DNA of 64,000 bases from a virus: the IMG/VR virus record IMGVR_UViG_3300007735_000797, positions 36,043 through 100,042 of that record. One strand, given 5' to 3'. The notes beneath the pieces were generated by a model. The model was not told the DNA's origin. It saw only the letters and a program-made list of their open reading frames with translations, and ran no database searches. Below, in pieces: positions 5,267-46,249 of this stretch. A program made the position numbers and the translations under genes. How positions within the stretch are numbered: the stretch's first letter is position 1; the number at the start of each line of letters is the position of its first letter.

Positions 5267-5683
5267 ATGTCTGATATAACAAACAAAGAACAACTCAATA
5301 ATTTTCTAGAAATAACTAATCCAAAAACTTTGAAGCAAGAATCTTCTATAGTGAAGAAAAATGTAGAAGATGACTATGAATATGCTAGAGATAACATTAG
5401 AGAGATTCTAGAGAAGGGCAAAATGGCTTTAGATGGCATTCTTCAGGTTGCTCAGGATGGAGACTCCCCCAGAGCATACGAAGTCGCTACAAATATGCTC
5501 AAGGCTCTCTCAGAGATCAATAAAGATCTCATGGATGTCCATGTTAAGGTCAAGGATAGTGAAAAAACCACAATTAAGCAAACCAATAACGCTATTTTTG
5601 TGGGTTCTACCTTAGATCTTCAAGACATGATAAATAAAGAAAGAAGCTCAAAGAAAGCGATAATACAGGACAACAATGTTTGA
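5267..5683 (+). CDS. gp16: Terminase small subunit, gp16-like
   Basis: This is a 138-residue, mostly helical protein. Residues about 35-100 (DDYEYARDNIREILEKGKMALDGIL, then PRAYEVATNMLKALSEINKDL) match the central coiled-coil region of T4-type small terminases. These oligomerise, recognise DNA and stimulate the gp17 packaging motor. The ATG directly follows the gp14 stop, and the end overlaps the next gene by 8 nt. In T4 the order is 15-16-17; here the small terminase gene precedes the gp15-type gene. Confidence 0.85.
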   Translation: MSDITNKEQLNNFLEITNPKTLKQESSIVKKNVEDDYEYARDNIREILEKGKMALDGILQVAQDGDSPRAYEVATNMLKALSEINKDLMDVHVKVKDSEKTTIKQTNNAIFVGSTLDLQDMINKERSSKKAIIQDNNV

Positions 5684-8600
5684 TTCATTTTATAACGATT
5701 GCATTAAAAAGAACACGATAGCATTTGCTTCGTTATTTAACAACATCTATGTGAATAGAGAGGACACAGAGGAATCTAAAAAAATAAAAGTACCTCTAGT
5801 ATATGGCGGTAAGGAAAAGTATGTAAGTCGCCTTCAAAATCCGTCTAGTATTTCTGAAAAAGATAAGCTTCAAATAACTCTTCCCATGATGAGTTTTGAT
5901 ATGTCTAATCTGCAATACGATACGCAGAGACATAGAAACAAACTTGAATTCAACAAGCTTTTTTATCAAGAAGAAGGTGAGACTAAAGCCAAAATTAAAA
6001 TAGGCGAATATCCTTGCTTGATGCAATTTAATCTTGCAATTTACACTCGTAATATTGAAGAAAATTTTCAAATTATTGAGCAAATTGCACCCTATTTCAC
6101 GCCTGAATATATTCTTACTCTAGATTTTGATAAGACTTTGACTAGAGGTATTGATATTCCGATTAATCTAGTTGCATCAAAGATCGGAAATGACTATGAA
6201 GGTGGATTTGGCAATCGTAGAGCTGTAGTAAGTACCTTACAATTTGTAATGCGTACCTATTTGTTTGGTCCTGAGCGAGAAGCAACGCCAATTCTTACAA
6301 CTGATTTTAATCTTAATACCCAAGACAGCTTTTTACAATTTATTACAGATGTTCAAGTCAATGATGACTTATATCTTAACAATCAATCTATTACAGTTAC
6401 TTGGAGGCAGGGAGGTATTTTCCCCAGAAATCCAACTATCGTAATTACAAATCTTACAAACTACACCCAAGAAATAGTCTACGATCCAGAAACATTTGAC
6501 GTTGGCGATGGAACTAATAGTGTTACATTTCCTATACCAGCTTCTGCTCCTTTGCTACAACAGTTATATGTAAGAGTATTTTTGGGCACAGTATCAGATA
6601 ATTCGCCAGCATTTGAAATTAGATCAGCTGCTGGAAATATTTCCTTGTTACGGTTGGCTAATTTTTCTGGGACAACTTTTAATGATTTGATGTCATCCAA
6701 CCACTATTTCTTTACTCAAAGTGGTGTGACACAATTTCCAAGAGGCAACAATCTTGTCTTGGCTTATAATTATGGCTCATATAGCGATCTTAACATTAAA
6801 ACGCCCGGATTACTTGAATATTATCGTGCATTTGGCTTAACATTTAGAGCAAATACAATTGACAATCCACAAATTCCATTTGGTAGCGTTATACACAACG
6901 GCATGTGGGCTGGTATAAGTTATGATCAGAACAGAGTTTTGCCTTGTTTAACAATTTACATGAGACCCGGAGCCAATGTAAATTTATATGCAAACCAAGG
7001 TGATGGGGTGTTCGGCACAACACAAGGATCATTAGCAAATAGAAGAACAAGTGAGGATATGTTCCAAGCAACATATGGTTCTCAATCTTATTATATTAAT
7101 GGATTTTGGGGATGGAATGGAACTACAAGTACTATAAGTATTGGATCATATCCAACAGCTGGCATTACAATAGAGAGTGGTTTTAGTGGATATATTTTTG
7201 ACAAAAATAATCAAAATAGATATCCCGACACCGGAAAATATTCAACTGGTGTAACTCATTCTCAAGCAGGCCCATCAATAAGAACATTATTTGATCCAAC
7301 ATTTACTCAAAAGTTATATCCAAATCGTGGGGCAACAGGTCTAAGAGCTTGGCAAATTACTGCCTTTGGTAGTAATAATCCAGCTGATTTATTTTTTGAT
7401 TCAAATGTAATTTCTGGTTCGACTCTACCGATTTTTACTGCCAATCCCAATTTGTCCGGTTCTGATTTTAATTATCTTGATAACAATGATAAGATGAGAT
7501 TTGGAACGTATATGGACTGTTATAGAATAGCCCATAATGGAAACACATATTTGATTCCATCTCCATTTACTGCAAATCTTGTTACAGATATGCTTGGGTT
7601 TACTGCATATAAATCGACTGGATTTACAGGCAGAGAAGAATTTGCTGGTAAGTTTGGAACAACCTATGTGGGAGGATGGAATAAATTATTTGATTTTGTT
7701 TATGCTGGAAAAAATATAAATGGTGTTACGTTTACCCCACCCACTCCATGCGTGGATATTATTTTCAATGATCATGAACTTAGATGGGGACTGGGTTTGG
7801 GTGCTGATGCCTTGATGATATGGAGATTCATGCTTTTGGTTGATGGGTTGACAACTGCTTGGATCAATAGAGTCAAACAAGATGAATTCTGGCCAAATCT
7901 TCAGGCCAAATATGCAGAATATCCCGGCCTGTCTTTTGACAGAATCTTTGATAATATGAAAAATTCATTTATTCAGTTTACATCAGGACCTTTATCGAGA
8001 AAAGGTCTTCATGGAGGAATTCAGTTTTCTACTGATGCATTGCCATTGAATGAATTTTATGACAATGAGGTTAGAAAATATTGGTATGGACTTCAGGAAA
8101 CAAGCGAAAGAAGAAGTCCGGGATGCAAATTTGCTCCAGTTCATGTAAACAGAATTCCTAAATTAAAATCAGCTGCTCGTTTTAATGATGTAACAATTCA
8201 GAGCTTTTCTCAAGGAGTAACATTACCATACGAATTAATATATCATTATCCTTATGGTTATCCTTATACTTTCTCAAATTATCAGGGAAGATATAGAAGA
8301 ACAGGTTATGGCCCTACACCATCTAATCCAATAGCATTACAAGGTGTAACAAATATAGTCATAAATCTAAATCCAACGGTACAACAAGTAAATATATCAT
8401 CTGATAAGCTTGTTCCTTGGTTTATTGAGGACTCCGTTGGACAAACTGGTACAGCTTTTAATGTAGGTATTTCATATAATCAAACATATTTTGAAACAAA
8501 CCAATTACCTACTACATTGGGGAACGGTACTTTTGTATCTTTCTTTGGTAAATATCAAGAACCTTCACTCTGGCCTACGGCGGGAAGATCTTTATCAGAA

Positions 8601-9746
8601 AAATATGAACCATTTTTTGCAATAAAACACGAATCAAAAGAAATTCGTGGCGTAATTGAAGAAAATATGAGTCATGGGGTTTCTGGAATATTCATCTATA
8701 ATAATATTTTATTTAATAGAGTAACATATCATGTTCCACATGGATATGAAAACAGTTGGTTTATGGATAGTTTACCTTCAGTTGCAAATAATTTTGCTAG
8801 AGGATTTACTTATAATGATCCTGCAATATTTTCAAAAACAGATTTTAGTGGGGTTGATCAAAGACAAAATCCAAATTACCAACCGATAAATTTTTATCAT
8901 TCTTATAACGAAAATATATTCATATCAAAATTATTAACACCGCTTCCACTTAATATTTTAAATCAAGCTGTAATTTTCCAAGGACCTATAACAAATGAAA
9001 ATGATTCTAGTGCTGGGTATTACGGAATTCACCCTAAATCTTGGAACAATTTTAAATACAATGATGAGATTTTATTAAATCATATTTTATGGGATATAGA
9101 AGTTGCTACCCATGGAAGAACATATGAATATCTTTCTTCATCTGATGATATTTCAATGGAAGAAGCTTTAAGATATGAGGTTGGAGGATTTAATATCTCT
9201 AAATTGAATCCGGCTTTAGTTAGCAAAGTTAGATTGTTGGGTGTTACTGGGTCTGATCAAAATTTAATCTTACACAGAATTACTCTACCAATTCCATATA
9301 TTTTAACAACTGATTATGCAAAACCAGAACAGGGTTCATATTACGATAATTGGTATAATAATCATTTTGCTCAAAATGTTTTAGCCACAAGTGTCGATCC
9401 TTCCACTGGAACAACCCTTGATAACATTAATCTTATCACGACTGGAAATAGAGATTTAGACTTCTATACTAAGTCTGTTGTAACAGAATCAAACGGTTCT
9501 CACTCATGGAGTACACTTAGAACTGATAATAACATCAGACGTTTCAGTGTTGATGTTTTTGCTGGGACTCAATTAGTTGGAAACTTAGTACCAAGCAAAT
9601 ACTATCCAATGGGTGTTTGGTTGGTTACTGATGAAGTATCAATATTACCAGACGGAACCACGTTTAATAATTACAACTTAACTTTCCAATATCGTGATGC
9701 TGGTCCAATGGTTGATGGAATTACTACTGCACCTTATAGAACATGA
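5676..9746 (+). CDS. Giant gp15-type tail terminator fusion protein
   Basis: This is a 1,356-residue protein. Residues 1 to about 200 match T4 gp15, the proximal tail terminator that caps the sheath and binds the neck: MFDSFYNDCIKKNT, KKIKVPLVYGGKEKYV, NLAIYTRNIEENFQIIEQ, IAPYFTPEYI and a YEGGFGNRRAVV segment. T4 gp15 has 272 residues, so more than 1,100 residues are extra. Residues about 210-330 look like a beta-sandwich (ITVTWRQGG to YVRVFLGTVSDNSPAFEI). The remainder is aromatic and Gly/Asn-rich and I do not recognise it. No frameshift or internal stop is seen. The gene overlaps gp16 at the start and gp17 by 4 nt at the end. I infer a decorated neck or collar, possibly whiskers or a host-binding domain. 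gp15 identity is firm for the N-terminus only. Confidence 0.75.
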   Translation: MFDSFYNDCIKKNTIAFASLFNNIYVNREDTEESKKIKVPLVYGGKEKYVSRLQNPSSISEKDKLQITLPMMSFDMSNLQYDTQRHRNKLEFNKLFYQEEGETKAKIKIGEYPCLMQFNLAIYTRNIEENFQIIEQIAPYFTPEYILTLDFDKTLTRGIDIPINLVASKIGNDYEGGFGNRRAVVSTLQFVMRTYLFGPEREATPILTTDFNLNTQDSFLQFITDVQVNDDLYLNNQSITVTWRQGGIFPRNPTIVITNLTNYTQEIVYDPETFDVGDGTNSVTFPIPASAPLLQQLYVRVFLGTVSDNSPAFEIRSAAGNISLLRLANFSGTTFNDLMSSNHYFFTQSGVTQFPRGNNLVLAYNYGSYSDLNIKTPGLLEYYRAFGLTFRANTIDNPQIPFGSVIHNGMWAGISYDQNRVLPCLTIYMRPGANVNLYANQGDGVFGTTQGSLANRRTSEDMFQATYGSQSYYINGFWGWNGTTSTISIGSYPTAGITIESGFSGYIFDKNNQNRYPDTGKYSTGVTHSQAGPSIRTLFDPTFTQKLYPNRGATGLRAWQITAFGSNNPADLFFDSNVISGSTLPIFTANPNLSGSDFNYLDNNDKMRFGTYMDCYRIAHNGNTYLIPSPFTANLVTDMLGFTAYKSTGFTGREEFAGKFGTTYVGGWNKLFDFVYAGKNINGVTFTPPTPCVDIIFNDHELRWGLGLGADALMIWRFMLLVDGLTTAWINRVKQDEFWPNLQAKYAEYPGLSFDRIFDNMKNSFIQFTSGPLSRKGLHGGIQFSTDALPLNEFYDNEVRKYWYGLQETSERRSPGCKFAPVHVNRIPKLKSAARFNDVTIQSFSQGVTLPYELIYHYPYGYPYTFSNYQGRYRRTGYGPTPSNPIALQGVTNIVINLNPTVQQVNISSDKLVPWFIEDSVGQTGTAFNVGISYNQTYFETNQLPTTLGNGTFVSFFGKYQEPSLWPTAGRSLSEKYEPFFAIKHESKEIRGVIEENMSHGVSGIFIYNNILFNRVTYHVPHGYENSWFMDSLPSVANNFARGFTYNDPAIFSKTDFSGVDQRQNPNYQPINFYHSYNENIFISKLLTPLPLNILNQAVIFQGPITNENDSSAGYYGIHPKSWNNFKYNDEILLNHILWDIEVATHGRTYEYLSSSDDISMEEALRYEVGGFNISKLNPALVSKVRLLGVTGSDQNLILHRITLPIPYILTTDYAKPEQGSYYDNWYNNHFAQNVLATSVDPSTGTTLDNINLITTGNRDLDFYTKSVVTESNGSHSWSTLRTDNNIRRFSVDVFAGTQLVGNLVPSKYYPMGVWLVTDEVSILPDGTTFNNYNLTFQYRDAGPMVDGITTAPYRT

Positions 9747-11377: not shown

Positions 11378-14300
11378 ATGGCTGAATTAACACACTCACA
11401 TAACATTAGCGGAACTCTTATAGGCCTTACACCCGGAAGTGCTCCTTTAACCGTTGGATTAACCTTTTCTGTTGATGGTGTGTCATTCTCCTCTGTAAAT
11501 TTTGATCTTCGCATTGATGTAGATACTTTTGATTTAAGTGTTCCTTATACTTCTATTGATACTTTTAGAGAATTAAATGGAAGTTCAGAAGTTCTAATTG
11601 CAAATAATTCAAATGGACTTATTGTTAGTAACACTGGAACTACATGGAACCATTTTATTGGAATTACATTATATTCCCCGCAACAAAATATTTTTAATGC
11701 CGGATTAGCAAATCAAATGCTAGCTGGTGATTTACATTATCGAACAAGAGCAAATAATTTTTCTTTAAAATATGGAGCGTTTGGTCAAACAGGAAGTGGC
11801 CAAATAGCAGAAGTCGCATCATCAACAAGAGGCGAAACACTTTCATTTAGACCATTTAATATTGTTTCGGCTACAAATGGAGTTGCAGGATCCACTCTCG
11901 GATTAACTTTACAATCTGCTAATATTCAAAGATATTATGTTGGTATTGGTACTGGTGCAACATTTTTTGGTATTGTTTCATTACTAGGATGCACCAATGG
12001 TATTAATTTAAATTCTTCTAATTTAACATCTACACAAATTTCAGAAATAAATGCTGATTACTTAGATCCTAATATTTCTGGTACTGATTCAAAATTCAAT
12101 ACACTCAGAAGAATTATTGATAATTCTGGTACAACAATATTCAATACTTCTTATACAGAATTTGTAGTGCCAAAACATATTCCGACTGGAAGTTATTATT
12201 TAATGCCAATCCCAAATTCATTTTTTGGACTTCCGGCATTTAGCAATGACGAATCCTTTACAGCTTCGGGACAAAATATTAATTTATCACAAACAAATAT
12301 TAATATTACAAATAATATATCTTCTGGGTTGACTGGAGTTTATAGTTTATCATCTGGTGTAACGCATTTTACAACGGCAATATCAACAAGACTTCCAATT
12401 GTATCACAAGCCTTTTCTAATGTAGATTTTGCTGATAAAACTTTTTCGATATTTGATCCAATAACATTTAATTTAGTTACATCTCCCTATGGAATTACAA
12501 ATAATTTAACAGGAAATACGTTTCATAAGTTAGATTATGGCTTTAATAATAGAGGAACAACTAACTATGGAGGTGCTTTAACGGATAATCCTGTATCTCA
12601 TGTACCACCATTATTTGGATTTATTCCTATTGGATTAACTATTGGAAATACTCTAACTGTATTATTAGATGGTATTACATTTTACGAAAAAATTTATAAT
12701 CCATATAATGTTAATTTTAATAATACATCACTTGCACATTTTTATACAAGTGAAAGTACTATACAAAATAATAAACGTTTTATACGTTTAATAAATGAAT
12801 CTGGCGATTTAGCTGCTAAAAGAAATTTAAATCACATCAATAGAGCATTTTATAGAGTTGATTTTAATAATCATGCTAATCCTTGGGGATTTACTGGATT
12901 TACTTTTGGTCAAGGATCTACACAAAGCCAATTAAAGGTATTTTACGGTAATCCTGCAAATGGTATATCATTTATTCTACCAATAAATACAGGCTCACCA
13001 GCAGACTTTTACTCGTTAACCGGGCAAGACGTTTTTATTCCGATTCAAGGCACTGCTAGTGGATCTACATTGACCCCGGGAGCTTCTGTTGAAATACACT
13101 ATCAAAATAGACCACTTGGGTATCTAGAAAAATTAAATTTATATAATGCATCTGGTAATTTTGCTTTAGGAATTACTATTGCGGATAATAGAACCTTTAT
13201 TCCAAAAAACACAACTGAATTGGGATATATAAGAAAAAACTTTGATCAATCTAATGTTGAAACTTTTATTGTCCCAAATTTAAATAGTGTTGGATCTACT
13301 GGAACTGCAAGAATATCATTTATTAGAGGGGATGGAGTAAGTTTTGAATTTGGCTCAACTCCGATCACAACTCCATTTAGAACATTTTCACCTATACACA
13401 CGATAGGAAATATTTCTGGACTGACGTTAATCGCAACTGGGGTTACACAATCAACAAGCCCAACAAGCTTTACAAGATTTATTGCTCCTGCTGTTGATTT
13501 AATGCGAATAACTGTAAATCATGGCCTAACAAATCTTGAGTCCGGAATAATTGGAAGAAATAATATCCACAGTAGATATTATATGCAATCAAATGTTGAT
13601 AATTTTTTAACTGATGGTAGTTTCTATAGAGGTTATTTGAGTTTTATACTTGATTCTGTCGGTCCAGAAAATGTTGTAAATAATGGTATTAGTGTTACAA
13701 ATCGTACATTGCGTTCTTTTAGAGAAGCTGCTTTAGAACGTGCTAATAACATAAATGCTATAAATGGCATTTCTTTGAGTATTCCTTTGAGAAATTTTCA
13801 AGGTGTTATCACTGAAGGTTGGCCATTCGATACAATTGAAGGTAATAGTTCATTAACTCAATTGATGAACTATTTTAATGGCCCACCATTGACCGAGGCT
13901 CAATTATCAGCAGTTGCAGACACATTTAATTATCCTCAATATGATACCGGGTTTACACTTATGTTTGATCAGGGTGACAGTCCGGATGAGACTTTTAATA
14001 ACGGGGAATGGTTTCTTGCAAATCCTCAATCGTTCTTAAGATATTCCAGTGGCAGCACGTTCTTCCCATCAACTGCATTTAGTTTTGATAATACCACGAT
14101 AAGCTTTCCACACTACATTTTCTATGACTATAGAATTACTGGTGTGACTTTATCATCTACATCTTCTGTTCAATCGCAACAATCATTAACAACAACAATA
14201 ACTGTACAAGATTTACCTCACGCATCAATTTTTGATGGATTAAGACTATCAGTTCTTAATGGTACTTCTGAAGTGTTTACAAAAAATTTATTATATACAA

Positions 14301-15760
14301 CTTCTAGCAGTAATGATTATAGAATACCCGGTTATTCTGGGTTAGGTGTAACAAATTATGCTGCTTATTATACAACTACTCCAAGGGCAATAACTGGTAT
14401 TTTTGTAGGTAGTGGAGTTACGTTAGGGGGAATAACTATTAGTCCCCCAGCAACTGGTTGGCCAGCTTCTGCGACTCTTACTGTAAGAGTAAGTCCAATA
14501 TTTAAATCATTTATTAATATTACAAGTGATGTTGATGTTTTACGGACTAATTCTTATGTTAGAGATACATCATTCTCAACTGCTGCTCAACCAACAACTG
14601 GTGGGGGTGGTGGTGGATCGTCTAGTGGATCCGTAAGCGTATCAGAATCTGTTGTTACTGGTGTCGCTTTCACCTCAACCGAAAACGATTTCTATGCAGG
14701 ATTCCTCTGTGGTACTACTGCTTATAATATTATTACAAATAATAGTACTGCTTCGTATTCAGTACTAACCAGTAGCAGCACAGCCTACGCCAACGCCAAG
14801 GCTGCGTTTGATGCTGGAACTCTAACGTCAAACACTTCAACAGACATTGAAATTCATTCTTTACTTAACTATATGGATTACGGTGGAAACATAATTGTTG
14901 CCCCAACAATTGATGGATTGTTAGGAAGCAATTATGAATATGATGTAGTATTTGCTGAAGACAATAAGAGATATGGTGAATTGATGCGTATTGGTTCTGA
15001 AAAGAATCATGCAATTGTTATTGTTGGAACCTCCCTTGAAGAGGATGCAGCCTCATTTGCAGCTCCAGCATATACTAATCTCAATTCAGCAGGGCTTGTT
15101 GATGGATTGACCTATATGACAACTGCAAATAAGGGTGAATATGTGTTCTCAGTGCTAGGATACAAGAATAGAACCCGTTTCTATGGTTCCGGAACTGATA
15201 CTGTTCGCCTTTATCTGTCCTCTGATGTTGCAGGCGCATATGCTCGTTCGTATGTAGAGAATAAATACCACTTATCAAGCTCTGGTTCGATTAGAGGCGG
15301 AATCAAAACTTATTCAAATATTACTCCAACTATTGTAGATCGTGATCTCTCTGGCTATTACACCAGAGGTATCAACACAATCTACATTCCAAGCGGTACA
15401 AACAGAGCTGCTATTTGGGGAGATGCCACTGGTATTACTACAGGAAACGAAGTATATAGAAAGTCGGCTTCAATCTCCAAGAACACTAGCACAATTAAGA
15501 GAGAATTCAAGAAGATCTTTGAAGACTTCCAATTTGAACAAAATAATGCTGGTACAAGAGCACAATTCGTTTCAAGAGCAACTACTGTTCTTGATAAGTT
15601 GCAATCTGTTGGTGGCCTTGCTTCTTACACGTTAATTTGCAATGAAACAAACAATACCCCAACTGTAATTGCACAGAAGAGATTGGTTGTTGACTTGACA
15701 ATAGTACCGAATAATTCAATCGAATCTATAGTCTTGAATTTTGTTCTTAATCAAATCTAA
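11378..15760 (+). CDS. Tail sheath protein with giant N-terminal extension
   Basis: This is a 1,460-residue protein with a clear ribosome-binding site (GAGGT) before the ATG. Residues about 1087-1460 form a tail-sheath core: FYAGFLCGTTAYNII, IEIHSLLNYMDYGGNI, KRYGELMRIG, YVFSVLGYKNRTRF, FKKIFEDFQFEQNNAGTRAQF and the terminal YTLICNETNNTP..QKRLVVDLTIVPN. This core is collinear with the whole of the next gene (377 residues). The first 1,074 residues are Ser/Thr/Asn/Gly-rich beta-like sequence with no family I recognise. They are joined by a flexible linker of six Gly then SSSGS (residues 1075-1085). T4 gp18 has 659 residues, so this is far longer. I infer that the extension projects from the tail surface. 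No frameshift is visible across the junction. Confidence 0.8.
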   Translation: MAELTHSHNISGTLIGLTPGSAPLTVGLTFSVDGVSFSSVNFDLRIDVDTFDLSVPYTSIDTFRELNGSSEVLIANNSNGLIVSNTGTTWNHFIGITLYSPQQNIFNAGLANQMLAGDLHYRTRANNFSLKYGAFGQTGSGQIAEVASSTRGETLSFRPFNIVSATNGVAGSTLGLTLQSANIQRYYVGIGTGATFFGIVSLLGCTNGINLNSSNLTSTQISEINADYLDPNISGTDSKFNTLRRIIDNSGTTIFNTSYTEFVVPKHIPTGSYYLMPIPNSFFGLPAFSNDESFTASGQNINLSQTNINITNNISSGLTGVYSLSSGVTHFTTAISTRLPIVSQAFSNVDFADKTFSIFDPITFNLVTSPYGITNNLTGNTFHKLDYGFNNRGTTNYGGALTDNPVSHVPPLFGFIPIGLTIGNTLTVLLDGITFYEKIYNPYNVNFNNTSLAHFYTSESTIQNNKRFIRLINESGDLAAKRNLNHINRAFYRVDFNNHANPWGFTGFTFGQGSTQSQLKVFYGNPANGISFILPINTGSPADFYSLTGQDVFIPIQGTASGSTLTPGASVEIHYQNRPLGYLEKLNLYNASGNFALGITIADNRTFIPKNTTELGYIRKNFDQSNVETFIVPNLNSVGSTGTARISFIRGDGVSFEFGSTPITTPFRTFSPIHTIGNISGLTLIATGVTQSTSPTSFTRFIAPAVDLMRITVNHGLTNLESGIIGRNNIHSRYYMQSNVDNFLTDGSFYRGYLSFILDSVGPENVVNNGISVTNRTLRSFREAALERANNINAINGISLSIPLRNFQGVITEGWPFDTIEGNSSLTQLMNYFNGPPLTEAQLSAVADTFNYPQYDTGFTLMFDQGDSPDETFNNGEWFLANPQSFLRYSSGSTFFPSTAFSFDNTTISFPHYIFYDYRITGVTLSSTSSVQSQQSLTTTITVQDLPHASIFDGLRLSVLNGTSEVFTKNLLYTTSSSNDYRIPGYSGLGVTNYAAYYTTTPRAITGIFVGSGVTLGGITISPPATGWPASATLTVRVSPIFKSFINITSDVDVLRTNSYVRDTSFSTAAQPTTGGGGGGSSSGSVSVSESVVTGVAFTSTENDFYAGFLCGTTAYNIITNNSTASYSVLTSSSTAYANAKAAFDAGTLTSNTSTDIEIHSLLNYMDYGGNIIVAPTIDGLLGSNYEYDVVFAEDNKRYGELMRIGSEKNHAIVIVGTSLEEDAASFAAPAYTNLNSAGLVDGLTYMTTANKGEYVFSVLGYKNRTRFYGSGTDTVRLYLSSDVAGAYARSYVENKYHLSSSGSIRGGIKTYSNITPTIVDRDLSGYYTRGINTIYIPSGTNRAAIWGDATGITTGNEVYRKSASISKNTSTIKREFKKIFEDFQFEQNNAGTRAQFVSRATTVLDKLQSVGGLASYTLICNETNNTPTVIAQKRLVVDLTIVPNNSIESIVLNFVLNQI

Positions 15761-15766
15761 TAAATA
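15759..15766 (+). promoter_or_regulatory. Late-promoter-like motif before compact sheath gene
   Basis: AATAAATA overlaps the preceding stop codon and ends 4 nt before the ATG at 15771. No ribosome-binding site is seen. If active, it predicts a transcript starting at about the start codon. Confidence 0.35.
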
Positions 15767-15770
15767 GTAT

Positions 15771-16904
15771 ATGCCGATTACCACAACCACACAATCAAAC
15801 ACATTTAACATCACCCCAGTATCTGCTACAGATCACTATACTGGGTTTTTGTGTTCCACATCGACATATAATTTATTAGGAACAACTGCTGATTCATTTA
15901 CGAATCTTGAAACTATTTCAGACTCTATTTCTACATTAGCGGGAAGAACAAGCTATACCAGTATTACCACAAATAGTCTAGTTGACAGAGAAATCCATTC
16001 AATATTTAATTGCATGGAATATGGTGGTAAAATGGTTATTTCTGGGACTACTGCTGGACTAGCCTTATCGTCAGCTAAAATTTCAGAAGTTATAGCCGAG
16101 GATACCTCTAGATACAGCGACGTAATTAGTGTAGCCAAAGCTAGACTGAATTGCAATGCAATTATTGGTTCTGACAGAGATCAGAGTGGGGACTACACCA
16201 CTCCTGATCAAGCATCAATTATATCCTCAGTATCAACTCAATTGGGGTCTACTGGCACAACAGCAATTTCTTATCTCGCAGCCACAATTATTGGTTATAA
16301 GGAAAGGCCAAGATTCTACACAGGTAGTTCATCCTCTACAAGCGCAATTACAATTTTCCTTGTGTCTGATGCTGCTGGAGCAAATGCTAGAGCGTCAGCA
16401 CAATCAAAACCATATTTAACCTCTGCTGGTGTTTATAGAGGAGAACTTTTAAATTATACAAATGTTACCCCTAAGCTCTCGTTTACATCATCAACAACAC
16501 TAGCCTCAAGAGGAATTAATTATTATAATTATCTCCAATCAAAGGGTAAATATTATCTTTGGGGCGATGAAACAGGATTTAGAGATAGCACAAGTGCTAA
16601 AAGTTCTTATGGTTTCTCCAAAGCATTCCTTTATATTAACCGCGAAGTAACTTCCATATTGGATGATTATGTCTTTGAATTTAATGATGCTACCACTAGG
16701 TCAGCAATCAAATCAAAGATGCAGAATATACTTGATCCGATGATTTCAAGCGGTTCTTTGGTAAGTTATACTTTGATTTGCGACGAAACTAATAATCCAC
16801 AAACAGTAATCAATCAGAGACAGCTTAAAGTAGATCTAACAATAGTACCAAATCTACCAGTTAAGAGCATTACTTTAAGCTTTAGCATATCTCTGTTATC
16901 ATGA
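15771..16904 (+). CDS. gp18: Tail sheath protein, compact gp18-like core
   Basis: This 377-residue protein is the compact version of the sheath fold. Its segments HYTGFLCSTSTYNLL, REIHSIFNCMEYGGKMV, TSRYSDVISVAKARL, YLAATIIGYKERPRFY and the terminal YTLICDETNNPQTVINQRQL plus LKVDLTIVPN align one-to-one with the end of the preceding gene. It appears to hold the contractile core without the surface domains of T4 gp18 (659 residues). No ribosome-binding site precedes the ATG; a late-promoter-like AATAAATA ends 4 nt upstream. It overlaps the third sheath-like gene by 4 nt. It may be the main sheath subunit, since it is the least modified of the three. Confidence 0.85.
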   Translation: MPITTTTQSNTFNITPVSATDHYTGFLCSTSTYNLLGTTADSFTNLETISDSISTLAGRTSYTSITTNSLVDREIHSIFNCMEYGGKMVISGTTAGLALSSAKISEVIAEDTSRYSDVISVAKARLNCNAIIGSDRDQSGDYTTPDQASIISSVSTQLGSTGTTAISYLAATIIGYKERPRFYTGSSSSTSAITIFLVSDAAGANARASAQSKPYLTSAGVYRGELLNYTNVTPKLSFTSSTTLASRGINYYNYLQSKGKYYLWGDETGFRDSTSAKSSYGFSKAFLYINREVTSILDDYVFEFNDATTRSAIKSKMQNILDPMISSGSLVSYTLICDETNNPQTVINQRQLKVDLTIVPNLPVKSITLSFSISLLS

Positions 16905-18313
16905 ACATAGTTAACTACGGACAAACTACAGTACCAAGCGATTTTAAAATTCTCGCTTTTGTATCTCCATTAACGCAAAGTGTTTTGTCCGGAATAACTA
17001 CTTCAAGTCTTGGGTCTGATCAATTAACATATGTAGAGTCGTTAGAAGATTTTGTAGATACTTTATTTGGTTATACTGCTATAACTTTTCAAGCTGGATC
17101 AGGAGCAACTGCTGAGAAAATAACGGATGTGGAGTTACATGGCATAATGACGATGCTTGAATATGGAGCATCTGTATATGTTATGAATACTACTGGTTTA
17201 ACAGAATCAGGTGCATATACAACAAAAAATATTCAAAGCGTTATTAACTCGACAGGTGCAGGGTGCATTGTTAACAATGTATTTGATGGATTGACTGGTT
17301 CTGGGTTTACTGGAATACAAGATACTCCAATAATAATTCAAAATACAGATTTTGAACAAAGATTATTAAATTATTTTATCACAGAAGTTAATGATCCCGG
17401 AAATACAGCTGGAACCCCCTTTACATATAACGATCAGCTGGGCGAAATATATGCCAATTTTCAAGATGACATTCAGCCATCTGATACATTTACAGAATTA
17501 TTTCCTTCATTAGGTAAGTTTGCTTATGATACATTTCCATCGGCAGTTTATGGAACTTCAGAATATAATAATTTTATCGTATCCAACGGAAAATTAATCG
17601 ATCAAAATATTATAGAGCTTTTGGGTATTAAGATAAGAAATAGATGTATCAATCCAGAGACAAACCCAGAATCTACAAGTGAACTTTGGACTAAAATTCC
17701 GGTTCCGATGGTTTATGATCTAGCTGGTCAGTTTTCAAGGCTTAATTTAGCCGGAACTCCATGGAGCAGCACATCAAATTTCTTGGTAGGTCCATTGCTT
17801 AATATTGTTCAAGACGATGGTGAATATGTTTTGCCGTTTTCGGATAGCAATTCAGTGGCTGAGTTTAAAAATACCATCACCGGACTTATCAATAATAGAA
17901 TAAATTATGCAACTTTCTATAGTTTTGACGGAATTTATGGTTGCTATTTCTTAAGTGATCTGACTTGCGAATCTCAAACTGATAATTCGGCTCCATTTAC
18001 GCTGGCTCAAAGCGAAAAAAGCGTTTATTTTGTAAACATTACAAAGTATATTAAAACTAAAATTTCATCAATTTGTGAAAATTATGTGTTTGAACTAAAC
18101 AATGAGATAACTCGTTTACAGTTAACATCTGAAATATTAACCTTCATGAATGGATTGCTGTCTGACGGAGCTATTAATAACTTTAATATTGTTGCGGATG
18201 ATACAAATAACACATTTGAAGATCGTATAAATAGAAGGTTGAGGGTAGATGTATCCTATACAACTAATCCAACAAATGATTTTGTGGAGCAATCAATAAT
18301 TATCATACCTTAA
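16901..18313 (+). CDS. Third tail sheath-like paralog
   Basis: This is a 470-residue, more divergent sheath relative that starts on an ATGA overlap with the 377-residue sheath gene. Shared landmarks are FKILAFVSPLTQSVL near the N-terminus, TDVELHGIMTMLEYGASVYV (about residues 77-96), and a C-terminus in sheath order: IKTKISSICENYVFELNNEI, FNIVADDTNNTFEDRINRRL and RVDVSYTTNP. The middle holds about 100 residues that have no counterpart in the two neighbours. It could be a minor sheath subunit for one end of the tail, or a sheath-derived collar protein. Sheath ancestry is well supported; a contractile role is inferred. Confidence 0.75.
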   Translation: MNIVNYGQTTVPSDFKILAFVSPLTQSVLSGITTSSLGSDQLTYVESLEDFVDTLFGYTAITFQAGSGATAEKITDVELHGIMTMLEYGASVYVMNTTGLTESGAYTTKNIQSVINSTGAGCIVNNVFDGLTGSGFTGIQDTPIIIQNTDFEQRLLNYFITEVNDPGNTAGTPFTYNDQLGEIYANFQDDIQPSDTFTELFPSLGKFAYDTFPSAVYGTSEYNNFIVSNGKLIDQNIIELLGIKIRNRCINPETNPESTSELWTKIPVPMVYDLAGQFSRLNLAGTPWSSTSNFLVGPLLNIVQDDGEYVLPFSDSNSVAEFKNTITGLINNRINYATFYSFDGIYGCYFLSDLTCESQTDNSAPFTLAQSEKSVYFVNITKYIKTKISSICENYVFELNNEITRLQLTSEILTFMNGLLSDGAINNFNIVADDTNNTFEDRINRRLRVDVSYTTNPTNDFVEQSIIIIP

Positions 18314-18340
18314 AATACATAGATAATAGGGTAGAAAACG

Positions 18341-18874
18341 ATGAGCAACGCAAATTCACTAAGTTATTTTAAACAAAAATTCAACGGTGGTACTCGCCAA
18401 AATCGATTTGAGGTTGAGGGACAATGGCCGAATATTTCGGAAAATCCCAAAACATGCTTTCATATTGTTTCTGCAAGTATGCCACAGTCAGATGTTGGCA
18501 TAATTCAAATTCCTTACAGAGGAAGAGTTTTAAATATAGCTGGAGATAGAGAATATGAAGCTTGGAACTTAGTGATTTATGATGACACAGGTACTAATTC
18601 TTTATGGAAAGCATTTACAAGTTGGTCTAACATAATTAATAAAATTTCTGGAAATACCATAAATCCTCAAAATGTAAATTTTAGAAATGTAAAAACTAAT
18701 TGGAAAGTAAGACAACTTAATACAACTAACAATGGAACTATTCGTGAACTTGAGTTGTTGGGTTGTTGGCCAGCTTCTGTAGGAGCTTTAAATTTCAATG
18801 CTTCAAATGTTAATCCTGTTGTTTTTAATGTAACTATGAATTACGATCAATTTAGGATAACAAAATACTCATGA
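18341..18874 (+). CDS. gp19: Tail tube protein, gp19-like (copy 1)
   Basis: This 177-residue protein follows the gp19 pattern: an N-terminal FKQKFNGGTRQNRFEVEGQWP, a central FHIVSASMPQSDVGIIQIPYRGR and LNIAGDREYEAWNLVIYDDTG, and a C-terminal ELELLGCWPASVGALNF. gp19 hexamers stack to form the tail tube inside the sheath. A ribosome-binding site (AGGGTAG) lies before the ATG. Length is near the 163 residues of T4 gp19. The next gene, overlapping by 4 nt, is a paralog with the same layout. Confidence 0.9.
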   Translation: MSNANSLSYFKQKFNGGTRQNRFEVEGQWPNISENPKTCFHIVSASMPQSDVGIIQIPYRGRVLNIAGDREYEAWNLVIYDDTGTNSLWKAFTSWSNIINKISGNTINPQNVNFRNVKTNWKVRQLNTTNNGTIRELELLGCWPASVGALNFNASNVNPVVFNVTMNYDQFRITKYS

Positions 18875-19446
18875 GCTGCGATAGCAAAATTTCAACTTTC
18901 AGAGATGCATTCGCATCATTCCCAAGAGGAAACAGATATTCCATTTCAGGTCAAATTCCCAATTCAAATAATGGATGGGGTAATGATAATACTGGTGGAT
19001 TTCATATTCATGCTTTGGCATTGAATGTTCCTCCAGCAAATCTTACAACTCTTCGATACAATTATAGAGGTAGAACCCTCAAAAATCCCGGAGATAGACT
19101 ATTTCCATTTTGGAATGTCACTATTTTGGACGATACAGGGACTGATACCGTGTGGGAAGCGTTCCACAAATGGAGTAACAGTATCAATGATCATGATTCA
19201 AATTTAAGAACTACCTCCGCTTCAAGCTATGATTCTTATAAGCAGAATGGATGGATAGTTAAGCAATTAGGTCTCAACGGAGATACGATTAAAAGCGTAA
19301 CTCTTGACGGTTGCTTTCCTTACATTGTTGGACCAATTGAGCTTGATATGAATCAAAAAAATACCGTTTGTCAATTTAGCATGGTAATAGCATACGATAG
19401 CGTGGTTGATGTGTTTACAAAAGACGGAACAATTAATATTAATTAA
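18871..19446 (+). CDS. gp19: Tail tube protein, gp19-like (copy 2)
   Basis: This 191-residue protein is a diverged duplicate of the previous gene. Matching landmarks are FRDAFASFPRGNRYSISGQIP, TTLRYNYRGRTLKNPGDRLF, FWNVTILDDTGTDTVWEAFHKWS and VTLDGCFPYIVGPIELDM. It starts at an ATGA overlap, so both copies are likely made together. Two tube subunits could give a hetero-hexameric tube or different tube sections. Alternatively one copy could be a tube cap or initiator. The fold call is firm; the division of labour is unknown. Confidence 0.85.
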   Translation: MSCDSKISTFRDAFASFPRGNRYSISGQIPNSNNGWGNDNTGGFHIHALALNVPPANLTTLRYNYRGRTLKNPGDRLFPFWNVTILDDTGTDTVWEAFHKWSNSINDHDSNLRTTSASSYDSYKQNGWIVKQLGLNGDTIKSVTLDGCFPYIVGPIELDMNQKNTVCQFSMVIAYDSVVDVFTKDGTININ

Positions 19447-35392: not shown

Positions 35393-36007
35393 ATGATACC
35401 AAAAATTATACACCAAATATGGTTGGGGGATCAATCAAAACGTCCTTCCAACCTTATAGAAACATGGAAAAGTAAAAATCCATCATGGCAACATAAATTG
35501 TGGACCGATGATAATTTACCCACATTGATATGCAAAAAACAATTTGAAGAATGTCCTTCGCTTCCCGGAAAAGCTGATATTTTAAGATATCAACTTCTTT
35601 ACCAGCAAGGTGGGTTTTTTATTGATGCAGATTCTGAATGTATTAATTCTTTAGATGATTGTTTATTGAATAATCATTGTTTTTGTTGCTGGGAAAACGA
35701 AACAGTCCGTAAAGGGCTTATGGCAAATGGATATTTAGCAGCAGAACGAGAGTGCGAATTGATGAAATTGATTATGAATAAGATTGATTCATATCCACAT
35801 ATGAATTATCCTCCTCTAGCCACATGGGAAATAACGGGACCTTTATTACTAACTAATACAGCTTATCTCAATAAGTATCCAATCACAGTGTATCCTAGTT
35901 GGTATTTTATACCAAGACATTACACTGGATTGGAATATAAGGGTGATGGTAAAATATACGCAAAACAATATTGGGGAACCACTCCAAACAGTGGTTATGA
36001 TTATTAA
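35393..36007 (+). CDS. Glycosyltransferase, GT32/OCH1-like with DXD motif
   Basis: This 204-residue protein has the two signatures of the DXD-sugar family: IPKIIHQIWLG at the start and SLPGKADILRYQLLYQQGG followed by FFIDADSE, where D78-x-D80 would bind metal and the nucleotide-sugar. It is shorter than many members but keeps the catalytic region. It starts 6 nt after the previous stop, with no clear ribosome-binding site, and overlaps the next glycosyltransferase by 1 nt. The acceptor and the sugar are unknown. Confidence 0.85.
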   Translation: MIPKIIHQIWLGDQSKRPSNLIETWKSKNPSWQHKLWTDDNLPTLICKKQFEECPSLPGKADILRYQLLYQQGGFFIDADSECINSLDDCLLNNHCFCCWENETVRKGLMANGYLAAERECELMKLIMNKIDSYPHMNYPPLATWEITGPLLLTNTAYLNKYPITVYPSWYFIPRHYTGLEYKGDGKIYAKQYWGTTPNSGYDY

Positions 36008-36762
36008 TGGAAACCGTATCTATAGTTTTAAATTCATATCGAAGAACCAGATGGTTTATGGAACAATACCAAGCGATCAAAAATCAATCTGTTCCTATAA
36101 ATGAAATCTATGTGTGGCAAAATAAATCTGATTCCGAGCCAATAGACGCATCATATAAAAACGATGTAATATTTGCAGACTGCAATCAAAATTTAGGTGT
36201 TTGGGCAAGATTTGCATTAGCTTTAAATTGTAGATCAGATTACATTGCAATTTTTGACGATGACACAATTCCCGGATCAAAATGGATAGAGAATTGCTTG
36301 AACACACACAAAACTCATCCCGGATTGCTTGGTACTGTTGGTGTTATATTTGGTGACAAGTATTATACTTGGAACAAAGTGGAGCGTCTAGGTTGGTGTA
36401 ACTCAAACGAAACAGTGAAACAAGTTGATATAGTAGGTCATTGTTGGTTTTTTCATAGAGATCTTCTTTCTGTTTTTTGGAGAGAACTTCCGAGCAAAAA
36501 TCAAATACCAATTGTTGGCGAGGATATTCATTTTGCTAAAATGATACAAAAATATACTAATCAAGGGGTGTATGTTCCCCCCCATCCAACAAATGACAAG
36601 GAAATGTGGGGTAGTATAAAGGGAGAATCTTATGGACATAGTCAAGAGGCTATATCCATGAATTTGTATCAAGTTGGAAATATGAAACTTGCTGGTGGGC
36701 AGATGATGGCTATGGAACTTTCAAAAGCCGTTGATAATGGATTTAAATTACTAAGAGCATAA
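36007..36762 (+). CDS. Glycosyltransferase, GT2-type (GT-A fold)
   Basis: This 251-residue protein has a GT-A pattern: VSIVLNSYRRTRWFMEQYQA at the start, a DNA-sized spacer, and DYIAIFDDDTIPGSKWIEN (about 78-96), where DDD is the metal and nucleotide-sugar site. WFFHRDLLSVFWRELPSKN and GEDIHFAKMIQKY (about 174-187) correspond to the acceptor side; the ED pair may be the catalytic base region. It is located between a GT32-like gene and a WecB-like epimerase gene. Confidence 0.8.
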   Translation: METVSIVLNSYRRTRWFMEQYQAIKNQSVPINEIYVWQNKSDSEPIDASYKNDVIFADCNQNLGVWARFALALNCRSDYIAIFDDDTIPGSKWIENCLNTHKTHPGLLGTVGVIFGDKYYTWNKVERLGWCNSNETVKQVDIVGHCWFFHRDLLSVFWRELPSKNQIPIVGEDIHFAKMIQKYTNQGVYVPPHPTNDKEMWGSIKGESYGHSQEAISMNLYQVGNMKLAGGQMMAMELSKAVDNGFKLLRA

Positions 36763-36763
36763 G

Positions 36764-37759
36764 ATGATATCAATTTTTTATGGAACAAGACCAGAATATA
36801 TAAAACTGTATAAACTTTATACAGAAATGAAAAATAAAAATTTTAATTGTGAACTAGTAAAAGTAAATCAACACACTACATTAATTGAAGATTGTTTTTC
36901 CGATAGATCAGTAGATATTTTAACTACTGATAATAATAGACTGAATTCAATTATCCAACAAGCTTTAAATAGTAAATTGTTTGGCTCAGATACAACACAT
37001 GTAATTGTTCAGGGAGATACTGCAACTAGTTTTGGAATAGCTTTAAATGCATTTCATAATAAAATAAAAATAATACACATAGAAGCTGGCTTGAGAACTT
37101 GGGATAAAGAAAATCCATATCCAGAAGAAACATATAGAAAATGCATTTCTAGTATGGCTGATGTGCATTTTTGTGTTTCAACATTAAATAAAGAATGTTT
37201 ACAAAACGAAAGAGTAAACGGTAAATTATATGTTGTCGGAAATACTGTTTTGGATAATTTAGATAATGAAAATATTTATTATGGAAATATTATTCCTATA
37301 ACTCTTCATAGAAGAGAGAATAAAGATAGAATTGAAAAAGTATTAAGGGCAATAGATAATGCAGCTTTAAATTTCAATCATTTAAACTTTGTATATCTAA
37401 AACATCCATCTGTAAACATTAATAATGAATTTAAAAATATCTTTGTTATGCCACCACAAACCTATTCAAGCATGATAAATATGTTAAAACAATCAAGGTT
37501 TGTTATAACTGATAGTGGTGGAATTCAAGAAGAAGCATCTTTCTTTAAAAAAAGAACAATAGTTGTAAGAAAAGAAACAGAAAGAAAAGAGGGTCTTGGG
37601 GTATTTTCTGTTTTGGCTTTTGAGCCAATTAGTATAATAGAATCTATTAGAGAGTTTGATGAACATTATGAAATAAATGAACCTTGTCCATATGGCGATG
37701 GCAAAGCTGTTGAAAAAATTGTTACAGTGTTGGAGCAATATATAAATGAAATTATTTAA
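36764..37759 (+). CDS. wecB: UDP-N-acetylglucosamine 2-epimerase, WecB-like
   Basis: This 331-residue protein matches the UDP-GlcNAc 2-epimerase family: FYGTRPEYIKLYKLY at the N-terminus, VIVQGDTATSFGIALNAFHN (about 81-100), HIEAGLRTWDKENPYPEE (about 107-124) with the conserved His-Glu pair, HRRENKDRIEKVL and DSGGIQEEASFF in the C-terminal lobe. It would turn UDP-GlcNAc into UDP-ManNAc or a related sugar for the island. It overlaps the next gene by 14 nt. Confidence 0.9.
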   Translation: MISIFYGTRPEYIKLYKLYTEMKNKNFNCELVKVNQHTTLIEDCFSDRSVDILTTDNNRLNSIIQQALNSKLFGSDTTHVIVQGDTATSFGIALNAFHNKIKIIHIEAGLRTWDKENPYPEETYRKCISSMADVHFCVSTLNKECLQNERVNGKLYVVGNTVLDNLDNENIYYGNIIPITLHRRENKDRIEKVLRAIDNAALNFNHLNFVYLKHPSVNINNEFKNIFVMPPQTYSSMINMLKQSRFVITDSGGIQEEASFFKKRTIVVRKETERKEGLGVFSVLAFEPISIIESIREFDEHYEINEPCPYGDGKAVEKIVTVLEQYINEII

Positions 37760-38441
37760 AACTGAAATTGAAAAGTTATTTACACGATTAATTTCAAGAA
37801 AACCTTTTGCATTTAGCAAATATGCAGATGGTGAATGGATGGCAATGAATCAATTTCCGGTGTTTAATGGGGAATTTAAATCGGATTCATCGGAAAAAAC
37901 CTTAAACTCAATTAAACTTTTAAAAGAATCATTTGTTTATAGAGATCCTAATTATATTGTAGGAATCAGCTGTCCATGCTGCCAAGGCCAAGCACATGAA
38001 CACATGAAAAAAGTTTCTGGTCAAGATGAAGAAAATCTTACATATGCAAATATATTTGTAAATTCAAATTATCAATATTATAAAGATAACTTTATCCCAG
38101 AGTATAAAAATTGGAATGTAAATTTAGTAGCAAATGAAAATTCTAATATAGAAAAATTACCTTTTAATATAAAAAGGTTTTATCCAATCAAAGTTAATGC
38201 TTGGGTAGAAAATCTTGATTTAATTGAAACATTAAAAGAACTTAATACCCATGATGAATTGTATTTATTCGCCGCAGGACCTTTTGGCAATATATTGACA
38301 TATAAAATGTGGCAACATAATAAAAATAATACTTATATGGATATTGGTTCTACATTAAATCCTTGGCTTGGCTTTGAAGGATTTAAACGTGGTTACTTAT
38401 ACGGATCAGAAGATTTAAGCAAAGTTTGTATTTGGGGTTAA
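37746..38441 (+). CDS. Putative GT-D-type glycosyltransferase
   Basis: This 231-residue protein begins with KPFAFSKYADGEWMAMN (residues 19-35), which resembles the R/KYGDGE signature of GT-D fold glycosyltransferases (former DUF1792), where the acidic DxE group binds metal. The later LYLFAAGPFGNILTYKMW and MDIGSTLNPWLG segments fit the C-terminal part of that fold. CPCCQG near residue 77 adds a local Cys cluster. It overlaps wecB. The assignment is by motif only. Confidence 0.55.
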   Translation: MKLFKTEIEKLFTRLISRKPFAFSKYADGEWMAMNQFPVFNGEFKSDSSEKTLNSIKLLKESFVYRDPNYIVGISCPCCQGQAHEHMKKVSGQDEENLTYANIFVNSNYQYYKDNFIPEYKNWNVNLVANENSNIEKLPFNIKRFYPIKVNAWVENLDLIETLKELNTHDELYLFAAGPFGNILTYKMWQHNKNNTYMDIGSTLNPWLGFEGFKRGYLYGSEDLSKVCIWG

Positions 38442-38459
38442 ATATAAAATTAATTTATT

Positions 38460-39182
38460 ATGAATAATATTACATTATTTACATATACACATACTAACTG
38501 TAAAGATTTGTGGCCAATATATTTTGATTTATTGGATAAACACGCTCCTTCATTTGACAGTATTGTGGCATCAAATCAAGTTTTTAATAGCTATAAAAAT
38601 CATAAATTTGTAGAATATAAAGATGAAAATTATTGCCAAGAAATTGCAAACATTGTTGAAAACAACATACAAACAGAATATATGATTTATATGCAAGAAG
38701 ATTTTTTCTTGTATGATAATATTAATACCGAAGAATTAAAATACATCACTGATTTTTTGGATGAAAATATAGTTTCGTGTGTTCGATTAATTAAATGTGG
38801 TCAAGTGACAGAAATTCCAATCAAAGAAAAAATTTATTGGATTCAAGAACCAAATACACTACACGATTCAGTAACATCAGTATCTTTCCAACCAACTATT
38901 TGGAAAACCAAGGATTACGTTGAACTTTATAGAAATACTGCTTACACTAAATTCCAAGAAGGAATTGAGTTTGCAAAAACCATGAATAAACTTAATTATC
39001 GTGCGGCATATTACTATAACAAAGAACCCAAAAGAGGTGGTATGCATTGGGATTCTTCCATATTTCCATACATAGCAACCGCTGTTGTCAAAGGAAAATG
39101 GAATTTCAGAGAATATACATCTGAACTTGATTTAATATTAAATCAATATAAAATAGATGCTGATGTCAGGGGCAAATGTTAA
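38460..39182 (+). CDS. Putative glycosyltransferase (GT-A-like)
   Basis: This 240-residue protein carries a GT-A-type layout: an N-terminal strand NITLFTYTHTNCKDLWPIYF, then YMIYMQEDFFLYDNI (about 74-88) in which the QED replaces the usual DXD. A tail with SVSFQPTIWKTKDYVELYR and GGMHWDSSIFPYIATA follows. The family is not one I can name with confidence. It sits among glycosyltransferases and shares their A+T-rich composition. Its stop codon shares a base with the next start. Confidence 0.5.
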   Translation: MNNITLFTYTHTNCKDLWPIYFDLLDKHAPSFDSIVASNQVFNSYKNHKFVEYKDENYCQEIANIVENNIQTEYMIYMQEDFFLYDNINTEELKYITDFLDENIVSCVRLIKCGQVTEIPIKEKIYWIQEPNTLHDSVTSVSFQPTIWKTKDYVELYRNTAYTKFQEGIEFAKTMNKLNYRAAYYYNKEPKRGGMHWDSSIFPYIATAVVKGKWNFREYTSELDLILNQYKIDADVRGKC

Positions 39183-39982
39183 TGAATGCTGCAATTGTTT
39201 ACTTAACACGACGACAAGATATAAGTTTTCTTGTTAAAAGTTTAAATTTACTCAATGTTTTTTTTATAGACAAATTTCAATACCCAGTTATTATTTTAGA
39301 AGACGATTTAAATAATGTGGATAAAGAGCAAATAAAATTATGTTTAAATAATTTAAAAATTAAAAATTTTATTCAATTTGAAAAGATTTCATTTAGTTTA
39401 CCAGAATCTTTGTCTTTGGATTCAAATCGATATAATCCACCATTAGATGGTTTTAAGATGGGATACCGAAGCATGTGTCAGTTTTTTTCTGGAGAAATAT
39501 TTAATTGTAAATTTTTAGAAAAATATGATTGGATTTGGAGATTGGATTCTGATTCTTATATATTGAAACCTATAAACTACGATCCTTTTGCATATATGAA
39601 GGAAAATAACAAAGTTTATGCTTACATATCAGAATATATGAAAGATCAACCTTATGTAGTTGAAGGTCTTTTTGAAACGACAAAGCAGTTTATTGATCAA
39701 AATAAAATTAAACCTAATTTAATTTTACAACAATCATTAATAAATGGTTGGAATTGTGAAATGTTTTACACAAATTTTGAAATTATGAATATTAAATTTA
39801 TGAAAGAATCTGGATATATTGACTATTATGAATTTTTAAATTCAACAAATAATATTTTTTATAAAAGATGGGGCGATGCTCCAATTCGCTGGCTCGGTGT
39901 AAATATGTTTGCACAAGAAAATGACATATATTGCATAAAAGACATATCATATCAACACCAACATTGGATTAAAAACACATGA
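39182..39982 (+). CDS. GT15 (KRE2/MNT1-like) mannosyltransferase
   Basis: The ATG at 39182 has a better-spaced ribosome-binding site than the one at 39176, giving 266 residues. The signatures of fungal-type alpha-1,2-mannosyltransferases are all present in order: MGYRSMCQFFSGEIF (93-107), KYDWIWRLDSDSYI (114-127), YDPFAYMKENNKVYAY (133-148), TNFEIMNIKF (197-206) and FYKRWGDAPIRWLGVNMF (226-243). GT15 enzymes transfer mannose from GDP-mannose; in fungi they are Golgi membrane proteins, but here no signal anchor is present. The gene overlaps both neighbours. The family call is strong, but substrate use is inferred. Confidence 0.85.
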   Translation: MNAAIVYLTRRQDISFLVKSLNLLNVFFIDKFQYPVIILEDDLNNVDKEQIKLCLNNLKIKNFIQFEKISFSLPESLSLDSNRYNPPLDGFKMGYRSMCQFFSGEIFNCKFLEKYDWIWRLDSDSYILKPINYDPFAYMKENNKVYAYISEYMKDQPYVVEGLFETTKQFIDQNKIKPNLILQQSLINGWNCEMFYTNFEIMNIKFMKESGYIDYYEFLNSTNNIFYKRWGDAPIRWLGVNMFAQENDIYCIKDISYQHQHWIKNT

Positions 39983-40884
39983 GTTGTGTAGTTTTATGCC
40001 AGCTCGGATCAAAATGCTTTGATCCAAAATTGCAAAAATATTACGATCCTTGGGCATCACACATATGGAATGTTGCTCATCAAATAAGAAAATGGGATAC
40101 TAATATTCCATTTTATTTTATAGTCGATGAACAAATTAAAAATATTTCAAACTATGAAAATTTTAATCTACTAAAAATTAATCCAGTCGAAACAAAAGAT
40201 CTAGATCTGGAATTTGATCTACAAAATTTAAATTATTTTCAGTCTCATCATGATCCATTGTGGAAAAATTCTTTACATAGATTTTTTTACATAAATTCTT
40301 TATTAAAAAATAAAAAGCTCGAAAACTGCATTACATTTGATAATGATGTTTTAGTTTATAACAATCTTACAGAGTTAAGCAATAAATTTAATGTTTTATA
40401 CAAAAATTCATGTATAACACCAGTAATGTCGAATGAACTAGTATGTGGATTTTTTTGGATAAAAAATTCAAATGTTTTAAGTCGAATTAATGAAGGTTTA
40501 ATTCATTATGCTAAAAATCCATTTGATCATCATCCAACCGAAATGAAAATGCTGTATATGATACAGCAATCAAATCCAAATTTAATTGAAAATCTTCCAA
40601 TTTGGCCGGATGGGAACAATTCTGAACATGCGGATTTAATTGGGGGTATCTTTGATCCATGCACGATTAGTCAATTTCTAGCAGGCTGCAATAATGGACA
40701 ACCACCCGGTACAATTCTAATGCATCATCTTCTAGGTTCGGAATTACAAAAACATAAGTACACCATACGAGAGACAATTACAGATAATAAAAAAATATTT
40801 TACCTTATGGACAAAGAAGGTATTATGACTCGTATAAATAACTTGCATATGCACAAAAAAAGTGCTATAAAAAACTATATTTAA
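39979..40884 (+). CDS. Putative glycosyltransferase (GT-A-like)
   Basis: This 301-residue protein begins on an ATGA overlap with the GT15 gene. It has a nucleotide-sugar-transferase outline: a long N-terminal alpha/beta part (VVLCQLGSKCF, PFYFIVDEQIKN), then NSLHRFFYINSLLKNKKLEN and CITFDNDVLVYNNL (about 114-127), where D-x-D forms the likely metal site. VCGFFWIKNSNVLSRINEGL and a terminal MHHLLGSELQKHKY follow, with the terminal His a possible metal ligand. Donor and acceptor are unknown. Confidence 0.6.
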   Translation: MSCVVLCQLGSKCFDPKLQKYYDPWASHIWNVAHQIRKWDTNIPFYFIVDEQIKNISNYENFNLLKINPVETKDLDLEFDLQNLNYFQSHHDPLWKNSLHRFFYINSLLKNKKLENCITFDNDVLVYNNLTELSNKFNVLYKNSCITPVMSNELVCGFFWIKNSNVLSRINEGLIHYAKNPFDHHPTEMKMLYMIQQSNPNLIENLPIWPDGNNSEHADLIGGIFDPCTISQFLAGCNNGQPPGTILMHHLLGSELQKHKYTIRETITDNKKIFYLMDKEGIMTRINNLHMHKKSAIKNYI

Positions 40885-40886
40885 AA

Positions 40887-41648: not shown

Positions 41649-41649
41649 T

Positions 41650-42507: not shown

Positions 42508-42520
42508 AAAAGGTCTAAAA

Positions 42521-43150: not shown

Positions 43151-43152
43151 AC

Positions 43153-43824: not shown

Positions 43825-43826
43825 AT

Positions 43827-46243: not shown

Positions 46244-46249
46244 AAAATT

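Follow-up and report, generated by a model that had tools for sequence, protein, structure and literature searches.

We found that the tail terminator gp15 of a T4-like phage carries a giant C-terminal extension and that this extension, judged from sequence comparison, is a cassette swapped between related phages by homologous recombination. We give a probability of roughly one half to the reading that the extension is an auxiliary adhesin, anchored by the terminator and displayed at the neck toward the host surface. The region analysed, hereafter called the window, is a stretch of 64,000 nucleotides taken from a 100-kb virus record of this phage. The initial annotation of the window had proposed a gp15-type terminator with a huge C-terminal extension, and that part was right; the cassette exchange, and a second giant extension that we found on the sheath protein nearby, were not in it.

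A T4-type tail terminator with a giant extension

The terminator is encoded by a single open reading frame (ORF; 5676-9746, plus strand), which starts with ATG and specifies 1,356 aa with zero internal stops. It lies in a tightly packed cluster, sharing 8 bases with the small-terminase ORF upstream and 4 bases with the large-terminase ORF downstream. The order of genes is gp13, gp14, small terminase, gp15 fusion, large terminase, sheath, tube, portal and gp23-type capsid protein, which is the neighbourhood expected of a T4 gp15 except that gp15 and gp16 are swapped: the window has gp16 before gp15 (5267-9746), and the relatives examined have gp15 before gp16. A further ORF, listed at 132-1511, is truncated by the start of the window; the complete gene in the full record encodes 561 aa and begins with a baseplate-wedge match. 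The parts of the fusion protein and the two terminase genes that flank it are as follows.

5267..5683, plus strand: gp16 small terminase (profile matches; 8-base overlap with the gp15 start)
5676..6350, plus strand: gp15 tail-terminator core, residues 1-225, well-modelled fold 5-203 (PF16724 and 4huh superposition)
6387..6656, plus strand: small beta-rich domain, residues 238-327, seven predicted strands, low confidence (AlphaFold pLDDT ~50; breakpoints on both sides)
6681..9743, plus strand: orphan extension, residues 336-1356, aromatic-rich, exchanged between phages (alignment, codon comparison, profile searches, trees)
8226..8675, plus strand: most variable stretch of the extension, residues 851-1000 (41-68% identity, highest dN)
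9276..9743, plus strand: relatively conserved C-terminal stretch, residues 1201-1356 (65-80% identity in contig L011)
9743..11377, plus strand: gp17 large terminase (profile matches; 4-base overlap with the gp15 end)

Over its first 200 residues or so the protein is clearly gp15, as had been claimed. The Pfam profile PF16724 (T4-gp15) matches residues 5-225 (E 1.4e-51), PHROG 227 matches residues 2-230 (E 1.7e-54), and a profile of the clade matched T4 gp15 chains in the PDB at ~1e-23. In an AlphaFold model of residues 1-600, the confident part spans about 5-203, and this modelled core superposes on the T4 gp15 crystal structure 4huh with a Z of 17.6 (rmsd 2.9, 167 aligned residues, 28% identity), a value well above the Z of ~11 obtained with other tail terminators. 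Because of these profile matches and the superposition on the T4 crystal structure, membership of the modelled core in the T4 gp15 tail-terminator family can be regarded as safe.

The fusion itself is genuine. All or part of it is encoded, in one open frame, by 19 IMG/VR contigs (L002-L020), 11 of which have it at full length, and besides the window's allele there are six distinct full-length alleles, all of them open. The fusion of one contig (L016) is identical to the window's, and this contig probably represents the same phage; that of another (L011) has 65% overall identity to it. Since the sequences of the clade are metagenomic contigs throughout, a single chimeric assembly is possible; a frameshift or misjoin near residue 200, the artefact of which the initial annotation had warned, is ruled out as the origin of the fusion by the open frame common to the 19 contigs. 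The dN/dS ratios across the fusion alleles, mostly 0.01-0.4, show that the extension is functional and kept by purifying selection. An internal ATG at residue 719 is preceded by GGAG.

The extension is a family without recognised relatives

A beta-sandwich-like domain had been suggested at about residues 210-330. Such a domain is plausible, since seven strands are predicted at 238-327, and unproven, since the pLDDT of the model is about 50 there; its profile gave only chance-level matches in the PDB (best E 0.085) and no match worth naming among phage records. The description of the remainder as a long aromatic region is fair: F, W and Y together make up 14.7% of residues 336-1356. The mean for 24 other window proteins is 10.6%, although two of them are equally high (16.3% and 14.1%), and the gp15 core has 12.9%.

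Structure prediction and remote-homology searching, the check recommended at the outset, gave the extension neither a fold nor a relative. With an alignment of 10 rows AlphaFold reached a pLDDT of 27.9, and in the model of residues 1-600 the pLDDT was near or below 30 beyond about residue 330. The profile of the extension had no match outside the clade in the PDB, and none among PHROGs and Pfam profiles; tblastn against annotated phage records and a scan of genome contigs found no relative, and two further scans of viral contigs returned only contigs of the same clade. All matches by foldseek and VIA were to the gp15 core and hence uninformative on the extension. No carbohydrate-binding, adhesin or enzyme family was matched by sequence anywhere in the extension, nor was a catalytic domain or a beta-helix of the tail-spike depolymerase type, and the model (pLDDT 28) is too poor to support a fold claim. 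A TIM-barrel reading of the sequence was dropped for want of evidence. On these searches, the extension is a sizeable protein family without recognised relative, and no published description of such a terminator was found in open-licence papers. Against cyanophage and pelagiphage records, the terminase and capsid proteins reach an identity of no more than about 56%, and a scan of genome contigs with the window's terminase found no relative.

We also analysed 79 other gp15 relatives with 34-46% core identity. Their lengths are 213-454 residues (three run off the end of a contig), and none of them contains sequence similar to the extension. Nor do relatives keep the extension as a neighbouring gene, as the initial annotation had considered: BLAST against all ORFs of 80 loci matched only the same clade, and the synteny table contained none. 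The C-terminal tails of the relatives vary widely in length and content, and the gp15 of the pelagiphage Mosig EXVC030M, a Pelagibacter phage, reaches 532 aa; appending after the core is thus a known habit, and by these comparisons T4-like phages have a hotspot for added sequence behind the gp15 core, with the window clade as the extreme case.

The extension is exchanged as a cassette

Over residues 1-250 the alleles are 92-100% identical to the window protein, and past residue 250 they are 41-97% identical. Identity is lowest at residues 851-1000, with 41-68% in every allele except the two nearest, and dN is highest there. In L011, residues 1201-1356 are 65-80% identical to the window's, against 41-67% in the middle part.

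Codons were compared by the Nei-Gojobori method with Jukes-Cantor correction, which is rough where dS exceeds 1. Between contigs L017 and L010, dS is 0.05-0.16 for gp14, gp16 and the gp15 core and, in that rough range, 1.1-1.4 for the extension (dN 0.13-0.46); a near-identical core joined to a diverged extension indicates that the extension was replaced, with a breakpoint near residue 225. The window and L002 differ with a dS of 0.86 in the core and 0.56 in gp17, and with a dS of only 0.06-0.17 in the extension past residue 335, which points to two diverged backbones that came to share one extension recently. A breakpoint near residue 335 is indicated by L010 and L012, because they have the beta domain in common (dS 0.03) and not the rest (dS > 1.1). 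In AU tests, the core data reject the extension tree (p 8.2e-7) and the extension data reject the core tree (p 6.8e-44). These comparisons place the breakpoints of the recombining cassette near residues 225-335. Sequence appended after the gp15 core was already known in relatives; that the extension is an exchangeable cassette is, on this evidence, new here.

The sheath carries a second extension exchanged independently

The sheath gene (11378-15760), two genes downstream of the gp15 fusion, encodes 1,460 residues in two parts.

11378..14599, plus strand: tail-sheath N-terminal extension, residues 1-1074, hypervariable, exchanged independently (contig alignment, codon comparison, trees)
14600..15760, plus strand: Gly/Ser linker (GGGGGGSSSG at residue 1075) and conserved sheath core (PF17482 and PHROG 23 at the C-terminal end)

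Residues 1-1074 are 35-89% identical between contigs, and the first 100 residues past the linker are 86-96% identical. Between L003 and L013, dS is 0.13-0.14 for gp17 and the sheath core and 1.0-1.5 for the sheath extension (dN 0.43-0.65). With trees of five taxa, the sheath-extension data reject both the sheath-core and the terminase trees (AU p about 1e-5), and the gp15 extension did not discriminate between trees in this set. The codon data argue that the gp15 and sheath extensions are exchanged independently of each other, because two pairs show opposite sharing: the window and L002 have the gp15 extension in common and not the sheath extension, whereas between L002 and L011 the gp15 extension differs (dN 0.32-0.55 past residue 335) and the sheath is closer (dN 0.21). 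No similarity between the two extensions was found by BLAST or by hhalign with shallow profiles, and annotated phage records contained nothing that matched the sheath extension.

Genes of the sheath type (three, of 1460, 377 and 470 aa) and of the tube type (two, of 177 and 191 aa) lie consecutively at 11378-19446; the tabulated relatives have one of each. Several sheath and tube paralogues are reminiscent of extracellular contractile injection systems.

Other genes with low identity between the window and its relative G002 are those for a tail-type beta-propeller protein and a sugar-transferase cassette. The cassette at 35393-47479, which is mostly not in common with G002, encodes glycosyltransferases, a UDP-GlcNAc 2-epimerase and NAD-dependent epimerases, including GT15-type and RXYLT1-like matches, and could decorate the virion or alter host glycans. 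At 49222-51777 lies a gene for an 851-aa virion or tail-spike-like protein, about 11% of which is matched in G002, as another variable surface candidate. Outside the window, a large variable tail-type protein with RCC1/beta-propeller matches (L134:2929-8106, minus strand; counterpart G000:C1:18318-22532) has 40% identity between the two phages.

Discussion

In the mechanism that we propose, residues 1-225, whose model has the ordinary gp15 fold, would form the ring at the end of the sheath, through which tail and neck are connected. The gp15 hexamer, a ring between gp14 and the last sheath disc, is known from T4, and by this analogy six copies are expected at the neck. From the C-terminal end of the core, the chain would run through the small beta-rich domain into about 1,020 further residues, and the ring would carry six copies of ~120 kDa around the collar, probably exposed outward. 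In phage 812, the C-terminal strand of the terminator complements the first sheath disc (PMC12886913), so a chain continuing there should, by analogy, emerge near the outer neck. Kept by purifying selection and swapped among related phages, as the codon and tree comparisons indicate, the extension would bind the host surface from the neck, probably a glycan, in addition to the tail fibres and the variable extension of the sheath. We favour adhesion because a diversified, exchanged region facing outward is most simply explained by a variable partner, which is usually the host surface; the exchange of alleles fits any diversifying surface function, not adhesion alone. The neck collar protein of lactococcal 936 phages and the tail sheath of N4, both compared below, are precedents for this reading; the sequence searches, in which the extension matched no adhesin or carbohydrate-binding family, count against it.

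The whiskers of T4, made of fibritin, hold retracted tail fibres, and an extension located at the neck might similarly reinforce the neck or hold retracted fibres, with its alleles matching the variable fibres and not the host. The neck decoration proteins of phage 812 are thought to reinforce the neck and attach whiskers (PMC12886913), and the fibre-type genes of the window clade likewise vary. However, about 1,020 residues is a great length for a collar part, and the neighbouring genes do not recombine along with the extension, and we consider a collar or whisker analogue unlikely. A depolymerase or glycosidase displayed at the neck and degrading a surface polymer of the host would suit the length of the extension, its richness in aromatic residues and its invariant polar and aromatic motifs, such as D699-H-E701, W729-I-N-x-V-K-Q-D-x-F-W739, H1022-G-x-E-N-x-W-F1029 and H1200-R-I-T-L-P1205; the profile searches returned no enzyme family, however, and there is no usable fold, and such an enzyme seems improbable to us. 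Least probable is that the extension is cleaved off at assembly to leave a terminator of normal size in the virion: T4-like phages do encode a prohead protease, but a T4 gp21-type site ([LIF]xE followed by A, G or S) is absent from the whole fusion protein, and the diversification and exchange of the extension suggest that it is exposed in the particle.

Beyond the neck-displayed adhesin that we prefer, we raise tentatively the broader idea that the tail shaft is a main variable recognition surface of the window's phage clade, on which the terminator ring and the giant sheath subunits would carry two unrelated, independently exchanged adhesive regions with undescribed folds. The virion would then meet the cell along its length and at the neck, not at the tip alone. 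In contractile-tailed phages, the fibres and the baseplate are where one usually looks for host recognition; here, the fastest-changing, exchanged sequence of the neck-to-sheath cluster sits on the terminator and the sheath, which are normally deemed conserved mechanical parts. If virions carry both extensions, a host-range prediction made from fibres only would miss them in the window's group, and the use of an ordinary ring protein as a platform for very large displayed domains becomes testable.

Comparison with known systems

The window protein shares with T4 gp15 (PF16724; 4hud, 4huh, 9mkb) the fold of its core, its sequence family and its place in the neck-terminase-sheath-portal cluster. 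It differs in size, as the T4 protein has 272 residues and the window protein adds ~1,130 residues after the core, and in that the T4 gene precedes gp16 whereas the window gene comes after it. The Mosig gp15 likewise has a core followed by ~300 extra residues, in which a LamG-like stretch and a short beta repeat can be made out by eye, but it is well under half the size of the window protein, and a sequence relation between the two is undetected past residue 289 of the latter.

The tail sheath of N4 (gp65), described as receptor-interacting and highly variable, is similarly a variable protein of the tail shaft tied to receptor binding (PMC8669472), although N4 is a short-tailed podophage and we claim no homology between gp65 and the window proteins. 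The neck collar protein of lactococcal 936 phages has ~180 near-identical N-terminal residues followed by one of seven C-terminal sequence groups, and when fused to GFP, a carbohydrate-binding module (CBM) taken from this protein attached weakly to host cells (PMC6669499). It is a separate protein on a siphophage, whereas the extension in the window is fused to the terminator of a contractile tail; the 936 proteins of the NPS type are anchored by a BppU-type N-terminal domain, and the anchor in the window is the gp15 terminator itself; and carbohydrate-binding folds are recognisable there, unlike in the window extension, which has no recognised fold. The lactococcal collar proteins are thus analogous to, not homologous with, the gp15 extension, and what the window clade has in common with the NPS type is a near-identical anchor followed by a variable distal part, an arrangement that serves in the latter for display at the neck or along the tail.
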